A model generated the notes under the pieces. That model worked only from the letters and a program-made list of their open reading frames with translations, made no database searches and was not told the DNA's origin. A stretch of 64,000 nt of DNA from contig NC_087075.1 in assembly GCF_026151205.1 (NCBI RefSeq), forward strand, positions 5,820,858 through 5,884,857, read 5' to 3'. Source of the stretch: Bolinopsis microptera (taxonomy: Eukaryota > Ctenophora > Tentaculata > Lobata > Bolinopsidae). The position numbers and the translations under genes are program-made. Of this stretch, positions 3,250-37,635 are shown in pieces; position 1 is the first letter of the stretch; every line of letters starts with the position of its first letter.

Positions 3250-3428
3250 TTCATATGGTACTGTGCAGGGACGTTGCATAGACGTTGCATAGACGTTGCA
3301 TAGACGTTGCATAGACTGACCGTGCAGGGAGTGTGCATAGAGTGTTCATTGTGCAGGGACGTTGCATAGACGTTGCATAGACGGTTCTTTTGTTGTTGCA
3401 CGGACGTTGCATAGACGTTGCATAGACT
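3250..3428. repeat. ACGTTGCATAG minisatellite
   Basis: About a dozen units of the 11-mer ACGTTGCATAG, interrupted by 'actgaccgtgcagggagtg'-type spacers. It ends at the remnant intron of the broken jelly-roll gene copy, so it may have replaced that gene's 5' end. Confidence 0.85.
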
Positions 3429-3527
3429 GTCCGGAGGTAAACGACCAAGTTGCCCATAGTAGTCTGATCGTTTTCTTTCCTCTTGATAAATACTATTATC
3501 TTATTGACAAGGGTGTGTTTTCCACAG

Positions 3528-4626
3528 CGATCGAACTAGCCGGAAGAACCGGAAAAGGCCTGAAGTTCTGCAAAGAACAAACATGCTACATTCAATATCA
3601 GCCGGATATGGGACCGTTCACAGAGGCAATATCAATTTGTTCCTGGATCAAAAAGTTGCAGACTGGACATGACACCGTTTGGTTTGGATATTGCACGGCT
3701 CAAGGTGATATACTGATAACAGATAGCGGCCGATATAACCGGTGTTACACAGCTTCCGCCCCTGGCTTGACGAATTCGGATCCGTGCCAATAGGAGTATG
3801 GTATCATCTATGCTCAACTTGGAGTCGATCACTAAACACAATGAGCATCTACAAGGATGGCAACCTCTTAAAAACTGATTCAAAAGATTCCACCGGAGAC
3901 CCGATTCCTCTGAATGGCCAGCTCCTCATCGGGAATGCTTGCAATGGTGTCAGTGGAAGCCTCAGTGGACGGGCTGCAGGATACCAATTTGGAGGAGAGA
4001 TCACGAAACTCAACGCCTTTTCCAAAGAACTCAGCGCCGCCGAAATAAAAGCGATGTCAGATGCAGGGATAAAATCGAACATAGAGGAGACATACGGGGA
4101 ACAAAGACACATCAGATGGGAGGATATCTTGCTAAAGCCAAGATCAGGGAATGTAGCAGAGATAGTGATAGACACAGGAGATGCTAACGTTCTAGGTAAC
4201 AATTCACGATCCCATCCAAAGCCTATTAACTCCGTAACCTTAATCCAAACCCTAATCCCAACCCTGATCCCAACCCTAAACCCAACTCTAATTCCAACCC
4301 TAATCCCAACCCTAACCCTAAACCCAACCCTAATTCCAACCCTAATCCCAACCCTAACCCTAAACCCAACCCTAATTCCAACCCTAATCCCAACCCTAAA
4401 CCCAACCCTAATCCCAACCCTAATCCCAACCCTAAACCCAACCCTAATTCGAACCCTAATCCCAACCCTAACCTTTGCCCTAAAATACTTAATCAAGATA
4501 TCAAACCAACAGAGAACTGGAAATGAGCAGGGACTCGTACTACAGGAAGGGAATATTAATGTCACGATGTGCGACATTAACCTGCCCTACCTGCAGTTAT
4601 ATAATATCATCAGCTTTTATATGTAA
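3528..4626 (+). pseudogene. Broken jelly-roll/LamG-like secreted protein gene copy
   Basis: This is a paralogue of the gene at 8955-9851. It begins at the same splice acceptor (ttttccacag, ending at 3527), and the preceding intron sequence also resembles that gene's intron. No signal-peptide exon was found; the minisatellite at 3250-3428 stands in its place. Shared motifs are GKGLKF, MGPFTEA, CSWIKKL, YHLCSTW, GEQRHI and WEDILLKP. Compared with the paralogue it lacks one base near 3740-3765, which shifts the frame before the YHLCSTW block. The second frame stays open through the old stop region and runs into telomere-like CCCTAA repeats, which would encode a TLIPTLNP-type tail. Downstream 'atcaagatatcaaa' again matches the paralogue's 3' flank. 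Confidence 0.7.
4228..4482. repeat. Degenerate telomere-like CCCTAA repeats
   Basis: Units of CCCTAA with variants (CCCTAATCCCAA, CCCTAAACCCAA, CCCTAATTCCAA) occupy about 250 bp inside the 3' end of the broken jelly-roll copy. The paralogue has a short 'ataaccttaaccaagatatc' at the corresponding place, so a local expansion from such a seed, or insertion of telomeric DNA, is possible. Confidence 0.85.
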
Positions 4627-8954: not shown

Positions 8955-9851
8955 ATGAAGAATTGCTTCACTTTATTGATAATACTATCAATACTCGGAC
9001 TAACTTCTCAAGGTAAGACATGTGATATGATATGAAATTATGTTTTAATTAAGCATTGATCTCTCGACTCCTTTTGTCATAAGATACCTATCATATTAGT
9101 CAGATCATTTTCTTTCCTCTTGTTAAATTTTATAACATAACTTATTAACGAGAATGTACTTTCCACAGCGATCGAACTAACCGGAAGAAACGGAAAAGGT
9201 CTGAAGTTCGGCGACGATGGAATTAGCTACATTGAATATCAGCCGGACATGGGACCTTTCACAGAGGCCATGTCAGTATGTTCCTGGATCAAAAAGTTGC
9301 GGTCTGAACATAACACCATTTGGTTCGGATACTGCATGGGAGGTGAAATAGTCATATCAGATAGTGGAGGATGGAACTATTGGTTCGGATTTGGCCCCAC
9401 TTGGCTTGACCAATTCGGATCCGTGCCAATAGGAGAATGGTATCATTTATGCTCAACTTGGAGTCGATCACTAAACACAGTGAGCATGTACTATGGTGGC
9501 GATCTCTTAAAAACTAGTTCAAAAGGTTCCACCGGAGTCCCAATTCCTCTGAATGGCTTTCTTGTCATAGGGGATGATTGCAATGGTGATGATGGAAACA
9601 AAGGTGCAGCTGGAGGATTCCCCTTTGGAGGAGAAATGGTGAAACTCAACGTGTTTTCCAAAGAACTCAGCGCGGCCGAAGTAAAAGCGATGTCAGATGC
9701 AGGGATAGGATCGAACATAGAGGAGACATACGGGGAACAAAGACACATAAAATGGGAGGATATCTTGCTAAAGCCAAGAATAGGAAATGTAGCAGAGATA
9801 AAGGTTTCAGCCGGTCCAGTTCTAGGTAACTTGACAAATAAACCGCGATAA
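8955..9851 (+). CDS. Secreted jelly-roll (LamG/pentraxin-like) protein, two exons
   Basis: Exon 1 (8955-9012) encodes a start Met and a hydrophobic signal peptide (MKNCFTLLIILSILGLTSQ), then a GTAAGA donor. Exon 2 starts at 9169 after ttccacag; the phase-1 join gives Ala-Ile-Glu-Leu and an open frame to TAA at 9851, 246 aa in all. The mature part looks like one concanavalin/LamG-like jelly roll: WIKKLR near 55-60, WYHLCSTWSRS near 110-120, a 'GD-CNG' loop near 145-150, and a 'KLNVFSKELSAAEVKAMSD' end strand-helix typical of Laminin_G_3 domains. Four Cys lie in the domain (CSW, GYC, HLC, DDC). It is probably an extracellular carbohydrate- or ligand-binding protein; the ligand is unknown. A broken paralogue lies at 3528-4626. 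Confidence 0.75.
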
Positions 9852-10501
9852 AATCACAACCAAGAGATCTAAACTCTCTTAGGTTCCCTTAACGCAAAAA
9901 CGCGAGGAATAGCGCAGAGCAAGCATAAGAGCAGTGGTTCTTGGCTCCTGAATTGAGACGATACAGGCTAACCGCGTAAACCATATAGCATAACCTTAAC
10001 CAAGATATCAAAGCACATAATCGATAGTAGGATTAACTAAATCACTTAACATGGTAAATGTCTCTGAAACTAAGAATCCTGAATTGAGCAGAGACTCGGA
10101 TTATTAGGATATATATATTATTAGTCAACCACAACTATCAGTAAAACAACGCCTTGACTTCAAATGTCGGTAAAATGTACCTTTACAGTCATCCTCAAAT
10201 TATTTGTTATATAGTAGTGTTGAAAGTATTAATAAATATTTCGTTGCTGTACTCCTACACATTAAAAGTCGGTGTTGATTAGATCTTCGAAATTCTTTGC
10301 ATCATTTATTAAACATCGTTATCTCAAATTATTTGTTATATAGTAGTGTTGTATATATATTATATCCCTCAGAATTGACAAGTTTATATATATATATATA
10401 TATATTATATCTTTGTTTTCAGTGGCGCGGCGTCGAGCTAGTAATCGCAAGGTTGCTGGATCGATACCCGCCATCGGCAAAACCAACCCTGATGATTTGA
10501 G

Positions 10502-10544
10502 CCATACTGATGAGTCCTAATAGGACGAAACACTGTGTCTATGG
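10502..10544 (+). ncRNA. Hammerhead ribozyme, copy 1
   Basis: A minimal type I hammerhead. Stem I is CCATA pairing with TATGG. Core CTGATGA is followed by stem II GTCC/GGAC with loop TAAT, then core GAAA. Stem III is very short (A15.1-U16.1 plus two pairs, loop CTG). Predicted cleavage follows the C of GTC at 10539. All invariant core bases are present. Confidence 0.9.
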
Positions 10545-10778
10545 ATAAATATGCTCGCCTAGTTTACTAAGCTTGAACACTCTAGGGAATGAATAGATCT
10601 ACCGCTCAGCTTAAATGCAAAGCTCCTAACTTGTAATGAGTTTGTAGAGCAGTCTGGTACCTATGTAATTCCCTCATCATTAAGGGCTTGGTGGCCCAGT
10701 GGCGCGGCGTCGAGCTAGTAATCGCAAGGTTGCTGCATCGATACCCGCCATCGGCAAAACCAACCCTGATGATTTGAG

Positions 10779-10821
10779 CCATACTGATGAGTCCTAATAG
10801 GACGAAACACTGTGTCTATGG
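10779..10821 (+). ncRNA. Hammerhead ribozyme, copy 2
   Basis: Identical over 43 nt to the copy at 10502-10544 and exactly 277 bp downstream. Predicted cleavage is after C10816. The target duplication of the host element begins right after its last base. Confidence 0.9.
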
Positions 10822-11143
10822 ATATATTATATCTTTATATATATAGTACAGATAAAAGTGACCATGATCGTCGTGTCAACTTGAACGATGAAACGAAAAT
10901 TTCAACATTAATTAAGAACGCGCTCAAAATCACAGACACGAAAATTTAACTGACTCTTAATTAATCTTGAGATGAAATGAAAAGGAGGCCGATGCCAAAA
11001 ATCATCGATGTAACGATATATCTGAGCTAAAATATATGTGTTTTATTATTTTAGAATTCTCGTTTTTCTCACGCACTAAAATTTGTTAAACCTCCAACAT
11101 TCCAACGCGAAGGTTTGAATAAGCATGATCTGAGTTCACTTAC

Positions 11144-19472: not shown

Positions 19473-24710
<5,238 letters not shown>

Positions 24711-28631: not shown

Positions 28632-29235
28632 TGATTGAAGTGTGGTAAACTTACTTTGTATGCCACTGTCTAAGAATTGTGTAATTTTGTATTTTCAAAT
28701 GCAATATACCATATCGTTGTGCCGGAACTTTTATAAGTACTGTACCATATCACCATGTCAGAGCTTAGTTTGATATGCAACACCAGCAGCACGACATAAC
28801 TTTTATAAGTACTGTACCATATCACCATGTCAGAGTTTGGTTTGATATGCAACACCAGCAGCACGACATAACTTTTATAAGTACTGTACCATATCACCAT
28901 GTCAGAGTTTAGTTTGATATTCAACACCAGCAGCACGACATAACTTTTATAAGTACTGTACCATATCACCATGTCAGAGTTTAGTTTGATATGCAACACC
29001 AGCAGCACGACATAACTTTTATAAGTACTGTACCATATCACCATGTCAGAGTTTAGTTTGATATGCAACACCAGCAGCACGACATAACTTTTATAAGTAC
29101 TGTACCATATCATTATGTCAGAGTTTAGTTTGATATGCAACACCAGCAGCACGACATAACTTTTATAAGTACTGTACCATATCACCATGTCAGAGTTTAG
29201 TTTGATATGCAACACCAGCAGCACGACATAACTTT
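28632..29235. repeat. Second 72-bp tandem array with flanking duplication
   Basis: From about 28728 to 29235, about seven units of 72 bp ('ttttataagtactgtaccat' to 'gcagcacgacataac'). Because 72 is a multiple of 3, one minus-strand frame is open for 189 codons of a 24-residue repeat; this is not good evidence for a protein. The block 28632-28775 that leads into the array recurs at 30858-30995. The unit sequence is unrelated to the 72-bp satellite at 22-24 kb. Confidence 0.85.
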
Positions 29236-29674
29236 TCAAAGCTAGATAGTTTGTAAGTTAAAGTGGCGATGTCGTACACCGTTGAACAATATGTCTAATA
29301 GTTTGGACTCTGTCCTTCCTCTGGAACAAACGTTTTGTCTTTGATCCGTTCTCAGAACGTTTATTTGGGCTGTAGCAGTTGACGGTAAGGGGATGTAGTG
29401 CTCCTCCACTAATAACAGGCAAGTACTGTACTATATCCCCATATCTGAAGAATTGCTTTTGGGTATGCTGATCAATATTATGTATGCATCAGTTGTGATG
29501 ATACGTTCTTTGTTCAAGTAAAACCTGAAGCACTTTATCGCCGACACCTGTACGTTTGGACTGTCTTGTTTGCGTTTTAGAATTATATGTCGAGTTTGAA
29601 ACCTTGACTAGCGAAAGTAACCCCTTTTCAGTGAACACTTCCACAAGAGTTGATGGAAACTCCTTTACGTAAAC

Positions 29675-33815: not shown

Positions 33816-34068
33816 TTAATAATAATTTGAAAGCTGCAAACCACATTTGTAATAGGAACATCAAATTTTTGATGTATTTCCTGTAATAACTATAGCAGTT
33901 TGTTTCCACACTCTAAGCCAATTCAAAAGAGACAAATTTGTTAATGAATCAATCTGTTACAAATCCATCCATATTTATAGCAACTGACACAGTTTTAGGG
34001 ACTACATATATCTTTACAGTTTCAAGCTAGTGAGGTGAAAAGGAAAAATCCTTCAATGCACATACATT

Positions 34069-37000
34069 ATGATACAAGGATTTTATTCGTTTAAAAACAA
34101 TTCTGTTAATAATATACTTATAAGTTTTATGGGAATATCAGCTCAACAACACCGTGTTGCAACTGGTATGTTTTCTAGGTATGTTATCATCAGTAAAAGT
34201 AATAGAGGTAACGGGGAAAATTTTTTGTCCTGTCTTCTGTCTCGTCATATGTTATGTGCTCTATTGGGTCTATTTTATTTTTATGTTATTTTGTATATAT
34301 TTTCTTTGACTATCGATGCTAATATACTCCCTAGTGCTCCCCTCCAACCTAAAATACACTCTGTACCATGTTTGAGGTCATCCATAAATCTTTACTTTAT
34401 GGTAATATTTTGTACCATTTTTCTCAGACACTTTAAACTTGTGTATAGGGGGGAGAGGGGCATTGGGACAGCCTTAGCTGCAATTTCTGTAAAATTGCTA
34501 TCTACCACAAAAACCGAACTGTCACCTACCATGTCACCGAAACAGACTGTTAAGTTACTTTTCGGTATTACCAGCAGCTGGCTTGGGGTCATGTCTAGGT
34601 GCGGTCTGGTTTTTCTATCTCTCCTTAATATTTCCCTGATAGTAATTTGTAATTGTTCCTTACTGAACCCTGGACCAAATTTATCCGTTGTTTACAATAA
34701 TATCCATGGTTTCCTAAATACCTGTGATCTAGCATCAGGAACACCACCACTAAATTTGACCAAGATACATGAATTCCATGGTTATATCTACAAACATAAG
34801 CCTCACATCATTATTCTAAACGAGACATGGCTGAAAAATTCCATTCTCAGTAATGAAGTGCTCCCTGACAAATACAAAGTATTTAGGCTTGATCGATCCT
34901 TAAGATCGCATCCAGTGGATGCAACCCAGCCCAAGAAATTCAGAAAAAACGGTGGTGGTGTTCTGATTGCCCATAGAACAGACATTGATATCTCGAGTCT
35001 AAAGTTCTCAAAGGTTAGTGTTCAAGCTGAATTATTATCCGTCATAATTAAGACTCAGTGTGGAAGAAACTTTTGCATATCTACATTCTATAGAGTAGGA
35101 ACGCTTGGCTTAGATAATTTTGAATCTTTCAAGAAACATTTTGTTACTTTAGCATCTGCCAGAAAGTTGCAAAGACACATTCTGGTAGGAGACTTTAATT
35201 TAGCTTCGATTTCCTGGCCAGATGGTCAGTCATCTTGCCAGCTACATTCTAGCTTTGTAAATTTTCTCACTGATGACCTCGGACATACACAACTTATTAG
35301 CTCCCCTACTCACAAGTCAGGCAACACCTTAGATCTTGTGTTCACTAACATTCAGAACCTTATTAAGAATGTTAAAGTTTTAGATCAAAACGAAATGTGT
35401 ATGTCCGACCACTTTTGTATAACATTTGACATTGATGTTAAGACCAAGTATATTAAGCAGCCTAAAAGAAAGATCTTTAATTATAGTAAAGGTAATTTTA
35501 GGGGCCTGAATTCTGAGTTATTTGGCATCGATTGGGATAGTATATTTGAGTGTAATGATCCTTATCTTGCCTGGAGTCGATTCAGAGGAGTTCTTGATGC
35601 AGCCTGTGACCGATGGATCCCTAAAAAGACCATTAAGTCTCAGTTCCAGCCTCCATGGTATGACTCCGAATGTGATCGTCTCCTACGAAATAAGGAGAAA
35701 TGGAGAATAAGGCATAAGGGGAGCAACTCTGAGTCTCATAAACAAAAGTTTCGTGCATTTCGAACAAAATTTAAAAATATGATGGACGAAAAAATGAGAC
35801 TCAGTGTTGAGGATGACTCCGATGATGCTCTTATCTCCAAGAAATTCTGGACCTACGTTAAGTCTAAATCAAAGTCAACCAGGATCCCTGAAACTGTTAA
35901 ATATCATAATCGCTTTCGAAACAATCCATCTGATCAAGCTGCCCTTTTTAACGAATATTTTTATGAGCAGTTTTCTCAAGAGAGCGATTATGGCATTGAT
36001 ATAGATTTTCGTGATGATTGTTTTTCCAGTCTTGTGTTTAATAGAGAAGATGTTCTGTTGATTCTTAAAAAGTTAAATCCTAACAAGGCCCCTGGCCCTG
36101 ATGGGATTCATGGGAAAGTCCTCAAAAACTGTGCCCAAAGCCTTGCATACCCACTTAGTGTTTTATTTAACCTGTCTTTCTCAAGCGGATGCATACCCCC
36201 TGATTGGAAGCTGGCACTTGTAGTACCAGTGCACAAAAAGGGTGATAAGTCTTCGGTTGAGAACTACAGGCCTATCTCGTTAACATCTCTTGTAATGAAA
36301 GTCTTTGAAAGGTGCATAAAGACTGCATTATACGCTGCATGTTCTGATCTGTTGGATGACCGACAACACGGTTTTGTTAATGAACGTTCATGCACAACCC
36401 AAATGATACCTTTCACGGACAATCTTGCACTTGCACTGAACAACAGGTCCAGGACTGATATAATATATTTTGATTTTGCGAAAGCTTTTGATAGCGTTTC
36501 GCATGACCTCATTTTAAGTAAATTAAAGAATATTTTTAAAGTCGATGGACTAATGCTTAAATTTATCAAGTCCTATCTTGAGGGGCGACAACAACAAGTA
36601 GTGATAGGAGGCCAAACGTCTTCCTCTCTACCAGTTCGGTCTGGTGTCCCTCAAGGTTCTATACTTGGCCCTCTATTGTTTGTAATATTTATAAATGACA
36701 TGTTCTCCTGTGTCTCTGAAGGCACCAATATTGCCCTTTATGCAGATGACACTAAAATTTGGAGGGAGATTCTTGGTTACCCTGACCATCACATAATCCA
36801 AAATGACATCAATAGATTGTATGATTGGTCAGTGAGAAATCGAATGAAGTTCCATCCACAAAAGTGCAAAGCCCTCTCTGTGTCCCTGCAAAGAAACGTG
36901 CTGGATAACTTGCCATTCAATACCTTCTTCTATAAACTTTCTGGAAGTGATATTGACTTTGTGCCCTCTCAGTCAGATTTAGGAGTCGCAATAAACTCCA

Positions 37001-37635
37001 GGTTTAACTGGGGTGCACAATGTAAAGCGCTTGTTTCCAAAGCTAACTCCAGACTTGGACTACTTAAGAGAACATGTCATTTCACTATTGATAAAAGGCA
37101 GAAAAGATCGTTCTATTTGGCGTTAATTAGGTCTATATTTGAACATTGTTCTGTTATATGGTCCCCTCAATCTGCAACTCATCTTCAACAGTTTGTTGCT
37201 ATCCAAAAGAGGGCTATTAAATGGATCAATGGTGAACCCTACTCCAGTTATAATGACGATAAACTTGCTACAGAGCAAAAGAAGCTAAATATTCTCCCTG
37301 TCATGCAGAAGTTTATTTATAACGATCTTATGACCTTCTATAAAATAGTGAATAGCATAATCCCAGTTTCGCTTCCTACCTATATAGTCCTATGCCGTCC
37401 AGAGGGCACCCGATACACTAGGCACAATGCTCAAATAATTGATAGGTCGGATACTTCAACTTACATGAGTACCACTGTGCCCTGCTCGGATGCCTTCCGA
37501 AATAGCTTCTTTCATAGATCTATGCTGAAATGGAATAGTCTACCAGTATGTATCCGGCAGTCAGAGCGGATTTCTACTTTTAAGGCCAATCTGATCAAGT
37601 ACCTCTGGGCTGCCGATACAGTCTGGCCAGACTAG
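34069..37635 (+). CDS. CR1-type retrotransposon polyprotein (endonuclease + RT), 1188 aa
   Basis: An uninterrupted ORF. Residues about 1-205 are unusual, with three hydrophobic stretches (near 60-85, 105-125 and 180-200) ending in LLNPGP. The apurinic-type endonuclease follows: NETW (about 251), GGGVLI, VGDFNLAS (about 373), and MSDHFC (about 447). The reverse transcriptase runs from about 640: NPNKAPGPDGIHGKVLKN, NYRPISLTS, FDFAKAFDSVSHDL, SGVPQGSILGPLLF, and ALYADDTKIW (catalytic YADD). A C-terminal CR1-like region (WSPQSATHLQQ, KWNSLPVCIR) ends it. The ORF is intact and may be recent or active. No separate ORF1 was found upstream. Confidence 0.93.
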   Translation: MIQGFYSFKNNSVNNILISFMGISAQQHRVATGMFSRYVIISKSNRGNGENFLSCLLSRHMLCALLGLFYFYVILYIFSLTIDANILPSAPLQPKIHSVPCLRSSINLYFMVIFCTIFLRHFKLVYRGERGIGTALAAISVKLLSTTKTELSPTMSPKQTVKLLFGITSSWLGVMSRCGLVFLSLLNISLIVICNCSLLNPGPNLSVVYNNIHGFLNTCDLASGTPPLNLTKIHEFHGYIYKHKPHIIILNETWLKNSILSNEVLPDKYKVFRLDRSLRSHPVDATQPKKFRKNGGGVLIAHRTDIDISSLKFSKVSVQAELLSVIIKTQCGRNFCISTFYRVGTLGLDNFESFKKHFVTLASARKLQRHILVGDFNLASISWPDGQSSCQLHSSFVNFLTDDLGHTQLISSPTHKSGNTLDLVFTNIQNLIKNVKVLDQNEMCMSDHFCITFDIDVKTKYIKQPKRKIFNYSKGNFRGLNSELFGIDWDSIFECNDPYLAWSRFRGVLDAACDRWIPKKTIKSQFQPPWYDSECDRLLRNKEKWRIRHKGSNSESHKQKFRAFRTKFKNMMDEKMRLSVEDDSDDALISKKFWTYVKSKSKSTRIPETVKYHNRFRNNPSDQAALFNEYFYEQFSQESDYGIDIDFRDDCFSSLVFNREDVLLILKKLNPNKAPGPDGIHGKVLKNCAQSLAYPLSVLFNLSFSSGCIPPDWKLALVVPVHKKGDKSSVENYRPISLTSLVMKVFERCIKTALYAACSDLLDDRQHGFVNERSCTTQMIPFTDNLALALNNRSRTDIIYFDFAKAFDSVSHDLILSKLKNIFKVDGLMLKFIKSYLEGRQQQVVIGGQTSSSLPVRSGVPQGSILGPLLFVIFINDMFSCVSEGTNIALYADDTKIWREILGYPDHHIIQNDINRLYDWSVRNRMKFHPQKCKALSVSLQRNVLDNLPFNTFFYKLSGSDIDFVPSQSDLGVAINSRFNWGAQCKALVSKANSRLGLLKRTCHFTIDKRQKRSFYLALIRSIFEHCSVIWSPQSATHLQQFVAIQKRAIKWINGEPYSSYNDDKLATEQKKLNILPVMQKFIYNDLMTFYKIVNSIIPVSLPTYIVLCRPEGTRYTRHNAQIIDRSDTSTYMSTTVPCSDAFRNSFFHRSMLKWNSLPVCIRQSERISTFKANLIKYLWAADTVWPD

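Follow-up and report, generated by a model that had tools for sequence, protein, structure and literature searches.

A type I hammerhead retrozyme in the ctenophore Bolinopsis microptera with a uniform 3' junction, (TA)n-like targets and a candidate Penelope-like mobiliser

A stretch of 64,000 nt from contig NC_087075.1 of Bolinopsis microptera, referred to here as the window, was searched with Rfam. Two type I hammerhead ribozymes were found on the + strand, each matching RF00163 with 35.9 bits (gathering score 34; E = 2.6e-5 over the window). The motifs are identical, lie exactly 277 bp apart and are contained in a 131-bp direct repeat of 98% identity. Both have the core CTGATGA..GAAA, the stem I halves CCATA/TATGG and the GTC site; the predicted cleavage positions lie 3' of C10539 and C10816. 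The original prediction, made from the letters alone, was confirmed in ribozyme type, spacing, core, stem I and GTC site. The features of the locus are as follows.

10400..10414, no strand: left copy of the target site duplication (TSD), ATATATTATATCTTT, exact 15-bp direct repeat
10415..10419, +: GTTTT, probable filler, absent from the unit
10420..10544, +: unit 1, 5'-truncated (unit positions 153-277); identity with unit 2, 98%
10459..10467, +: unit 1, B-box-like GATCGATAC, consensus match GWTCRANNC
10500..10546, +: hammerhead ribozyme 1, type I, RF00163 35.9 bits, predicted cleavage after C10539
10545..10821, +: unit 2, full 277 bp in the rotation as inserted, GC 46%
10692..10702, +: A-box-like TGGCCCAGTGG of unit 2, consensus match TRGYNNARNNG
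10736..10744, +: unit 2, damaged B box CATCGATAC; the family consensus has GATCGATAC
10777..10823, +: hammerhead ribozyme 2, type I, RF00163 35.9 bits, predicted cleavage after C10816
10817..10821, +: TATGG, at which 42/48 insertions of the family end, 5 nt beyond the cleavage site
10822..10836, no strand: right copy of the TSD, ATATATTATATCTTT, exact direct repeat

The retrozyme insertion spans 10420-10821 and is flanked by the 15-bp duplication; when the AT-rich flanks were shuffled 5000 times, no shuffle reached it. The right copy directly adjoins the TATGG of ribozyme 2, as had been proposed. On the left, five nucleotides, GTTTT, separate the duplication from the element, and its start was therefore placed at 10420. 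GTTTT lies outside the unit, since at the corresponding place unit 2 has TGGCC ahead of CAGTGGCGC, and it is probably filler from the 5' junction. The insertion had been described as complete, a loose term. It does carry two ribozymes and a TSD, but it is 5'-truncated and comprises 1.46 units.

The GC content of the unit is below 50%. Its longest stop-free run is 45 codons on the ribozyme strand and 69 on the other, leaving it without coding capacity. There is no LTR, and the ends are asymmetric and truncated. The monomer RNA is predicted to be highly self-paired, with a circular fold of -84.6 kcal/mol compared with -66.3 ± 4.4 kcal/mol for 200 shuffles. Other Rfam matches in the flanks and at the Penelope-like loci described below (miscellaneous miRNA, FasX) were all below their gathering scores and were disregarded. 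Near the retrozyme, the related open frames at 9141-9851 and 3341-4626 are apparently duplicated; the former was assigned to Laminin_G_3 by its score and also matches Pentaxin weakly.

The genome was searched for further copies (265 Mb, nearly all of it in 13 large contigs, corresponding to 13 chromosomes). Its ctenophore origin is supported by an ionotropic glutamate receptor, which scores 407 bits with PDB entry 4yki (ML032222a, a Mnemiopsis leidyi protein) and 243 bits with the best-matching vertebrate receptor. At least 77 BLAST matches to the 277-bp unit and at least 69 matches to the hammerhead model were obtained, which bears out the expectation that further tandem copies exist. Flank comparison of the 55 loci that were read showed some to be segmental duplicates and left 48 independent insertions; all copy counts are lower bounds. 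Insertion length ranged from 0.18 to 6.5 units, exceeding one unit in 18 of the 48, and single partial units were present at many sites. The full hammerhead core pattern is kept in 68 of 82 units. A hammerhead-specific conservation was considered and dropped (1.8% versus 2.7% for positions 1-128; p = 0.056 by Fisher's test, the units being non-independent). When a second hammerhead family was sought by a fixed-spacing pattern, the matches were only two members of the retrozyme family.

The two ends of the insertions behave differently. In 42 of the 48 the 3' end lies precisely at TATGG (...GUC^UAUGG), five nucleotides beyond the predicted cleavage site; unlike this fixed end, the 5' ends vary. 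Such asymmetry, with a single 3' end and diverse 5' ends, characterises target-primed reverse transcription in non-LTR elements and points to this mode of insertion for the retrozyme. TSDs begin directly after TATGG and could be resolved at many loci, with lengths of about 11-17 bp outside the window copy. The duplication and the 3' end at the ribozyme are shared by nearly all copies, and the retrozyme class that had been assigned to the window copy is upheld. The targets are (TA)n-like: at least 12 A/T were counted among the 14 nt after TATGG in 35 of 42 insertions, as against 9% of random 14-mers from the window. The base after TATGG is usually A, but three loci (L055, L059 and L063) have G, which indicates that the 3' end is not made by target homology to the next unit bases, AUAAAU.

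Metazoan non-LTR retrozymes are an established kind, known from Acropora, Mytilus, Ambystoma and Nematostella (PMC7229834, PMC4918200), and the Bolinopsis element belongs to them. It has in common with them a type I hammerhead, tandem units of 150-450 bp with two or more ribozymes, a GC content below 50%, the lack of LTRs, TSDs of about 15 bp (15 bp was reported for Nematostella; PMC4918200), dispersed copies and a highly self-paired monomer RNA. It differs in unit sequence, in its ctenophore host and in its low copy number (~50 loci), and it adds A- and B-box matches, a mapped uniform 3' junction and (TA)n targets. Plant LTR retrozymes likewise have two hammerheads able to release circularisable RNA; they differ in having type III ribozymes inside LTRs, PBS/PPT and 4-bp TSDs (PMC4918200).

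The A- and B-box-like sequences had been taken to suggest Pol III transcription, a suggestion that holds better for the family than for the window copy. In the family consensus the A box TGGCCCAGTGG lies at unit positions 148-158 and the B box GATCGATAC at 192-200, a pattern that arises in 0.1% of shuffled consensus sequences, and both boxes are kept in 37 of 54 units. They sit where the unit is most divergent, and the unit has no TTTT terminator. In the window copy, unit 1 has lost its A box to the truncation and only unit 2 has an intact one; the B box, undamaged in unit 1, carries G>C in unit 2, so that no single unit has an intact pair. Pol III transcription is thus plausible for the family consensus and weak for the window copy. 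The description of the stretch as tRNA-like was not borne out, as neither ARAGORN (default settings) nor Rfam up to E 5 called a tRNA. An independent SINE with the same head was rejected: in a search with the 88-bp A/B-box region, all 40 matches scored (40 of 66 candidates) lay at retrozyme loci. The parallel that had been drawn with schistosomes is apt, since hammerhead repeats there carry a tRNA-Gln module (PMC4918200, PMC2770079). The SINE-like Sm-alpha and Sj-alpha elements resemble the Bolinopsis element in joining a hammerhead to a tRNA-like or Pol III-type module (PMC2770079, PMC8490949, PMC4918200). Their tRNA-Gln module is seen by tRNA finders, whereas the Bolinopsis element has A and B boxes only.

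The position of the 3' end also bears on the template. Because it lies past the cleavage site, the copied RNA should not have been open there, which leaves two forms, a ligated circle and an uncut multimer. The mean difference between units is 1.15% when they belong to one array and 4.05% when they come from different loci (p = 5e-4 by permutation). In the array L013, four private variants occur in 5/5 units and one variant in a single unit; in L028, 14 private variants are found in all units covering them (3/3) and one insertion is unshared. Most arrays are thus of a single haplotype, as is expected from several copies of one monomeric circle. This sharing within arrays gives better support to the 277-nt circle that the original prediction had proposed, and a 277-nt circular template is favoured. 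Five 5' ends lie near unit positions 270-1, around the 5' end that the ribozyme would make (p = 0.02, a cluster picked post hoc and no more than a hint). Alternatively, unequal crossing-over could make the units of an array alike.

A different account dispenses with the circle: reverse transcription would start internally at UAUGG of uncut, linear multimeric transcripts, and the 5' ends would be run-offs or aborted cDNAs. The same 3' end is expected from such a template, and a purified Penelope-like element (PLE) of Anolis acts on unprocessed RNA and needs no hammerhead cleavage, its ribozyme mutants inserting equally well (PMC11167929). Array L010 (G000:C6:1742031-1743535, 5.5 units) mixes two haplotypes in blocks AAA-BB-A, a mosaic that could come from template switching between circles or from a mixed multimer. 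Furthermore, five of the 48 5' ends fall at unit positions 131-137 (p = 0.007, a cluster picked after seeing the data), which hints at the site of a Pol III start, expected 11-17 nt before the A box. However, the single haplotype throughout most arrays, including L013 and L028, is what one circle would give, and arrays of 6.5 units would require long multimeric transcripts. The linear template is considered rather unlikely.

To look for a candidate mobiliser, the genome was searched for the GIY-YIG domain. Among the 147 matches, most belong to one family with a C-terminal GIY-YIG endonuclease (PF01541, 31 bits, residues 501-547 of 628), which was named PLE-A (e.g. L087). Reverse transcriptase-type motifs (DISNMFTNIP, GAAMGPKNS and LRDDI) were read by eye in its translation, and only by these motifs is PLE-A a putative Penelope-like reverse transcriptase family; the region had no match in Pfam, NCBIfam or PDB sequences, nor in an hhalign comparison with the reverse transcriptases of the LINEs in the window. 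No hammerhead was found inside PLE-A by Rfam (E up to 1) or by the core pattern on the coding strand. Two further families (L110, L111, L114) carry GIY-YIG close to the N-terminus, ahead of a long coding region whose motifs look, by eye, like those of a reverse transcriptase. They may be Penelope-like elements whose endonuclease comes first; in the pieces scanned, Pfam found no reverse transcriptase.

The 3' junctions of PLE-A are of the same type as those of the retrozyme. In all 20 of the 3' ends compared, CCATGAA is followed by (AT)n; L118 and L122 start inside the motif yet show ATGAAATATAT, and L115 reads ATACATATAT. TA-rich sequence is present on the 5' side of 5'-truncated copies too, and the TA stretch is therefore at least partly target. 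At L021 and L032 a truncated PLE-A stands directly behind a retrozyme within one TA run. PLE-A sequence occurs within 300 bp of 8/48 retrozymes, compared with 1/213 window tiles, that one being the tile that adjoins the window retrozyme. Some flanking repeats are common to both, e.g. TTCAGGGATAGACGCTTTGCCA in L115, L118 and L051. No obvious 3' sequence is shared by the retrozyme and PLE-A. The Anolis PLE, when purified, initiates reverse transcription internally, at sites without homology to the target, and prefers and cuts AT-rich DNA (PMC11167929), a behaviour that agrees with the retrozyme junctions. Insertions of this Poseidon PLE, which carries a hammerhead, likewise end internally downstream of the ribozyme, lie in AT-rich targets and are often tandem (PMC11167929); in comparison, the retrozyme is non-coding and ends 5 nt past the cleavage site, and no hammerhead was detected in PLE-A.

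Mobilisation by a LINE was weighed against PLE-A. TSDs of about 15 bp together with 5' truncation are LINE-like, the 15-bp TSDs of Nematostella repeats have been compared with LINEs (PMC4918200), and LINEs with Exo_endo_phos and RVT_1 are abundant. The one LINE family that was checked, represented in the window by a single open frame of 1198 aa with both domains (34039-37635), nevertheless has an A-rich 3' tail and lacks a TA run, and the retrozyme has no A tail. Since PLE-A shares the (TA)n targets and the checked LINE does not, PLE-A is the best candidate mobiliser; a LINE in this role is judged unlikely. An insert of about 830 bp was observed in the 3' region of the same LINE. Finally, it is highly improbable that a satellite-like tandem repeat, carrying the ribozymes as passengers, was spread by DNA-level recombination of TA microsatellites with each other, since the tandem arrays, TA-rich flanks and segmental duplicates that fit this origin are outweighed by the asymmetry of a fixed 3' and variable 5' ends, by TSDs of irregular, non-microsatellite sequence and by the single partial units at many sites.

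The best explanation, to which a probability of about 0.65 is given, is a non-autonomous metazoan retrozyme that is circle-templated, (TA)n-targeted and likely mobilised by PLE-A. Multi-unit transcripts would arise from the internal Pol III-like boxes or by read-through, the hammerheads would cut them into 277-nt monomers, and a host ligase would circularise these. A reverse transcriptase, most likely that of PLE-A with its GIY-YIG endonuclease, would then nick a (TA)n-like target and begin the cDNA at one fixed internal site, opposite UAUGG and 5 nt past the cleavage (now ligation) site. Copying of 0.2 to 6.5 turns of the circle would follow, leaving a duplication of ~11-17 bp. A wider reading is offered tentatively, with rather less than even confidence: Penelope-type machinery may copy animal retrozymes in general, by rolling-circle, target-primed reverse transcription of the ribozyme-made circle. 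Synthesis would begin at a fixed point, 5 nt beyond the ligation junction, and the ribozyme would thus mark the 3' end of every new copy.

Literature searches returned no earlier report of a ctenophore retrozyme. As far as they show, the host, the uniform 3' junction over ~50 insertions, the (TA)n preference and the targets shared with a Penelope-like family are new. According to a 2020 review, metazoan retrozymes are seemingly without promoters and no conserved motif betrays the mobilising retrotransposon (PMC7761336). With the 3' junction uniform, a preferred target known and a single enzyme family as candidate, the question of the mobiliser becomes testable. The ctenophore host extends the known range of metazoan retrozymes to one of the earliest animal branches, and the uniform 3' end, together with the targets shared with PLE-A, points to the copying mode of such elements.

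The window holds further repeats and a DNA transposon. Two tandem arrays with a 72-bp unit, differing in sequence, lie at 22030-24304 (31 copies) and 28726-29236 (7 copies). A AACCCTAATCCC-like repeat array at 4236-4473 is telomere-like and chromosome-internal. On the - strand, 1341-2093 encodes an ISXO2-like DDE transposase (PF12762, 56.5 bits).
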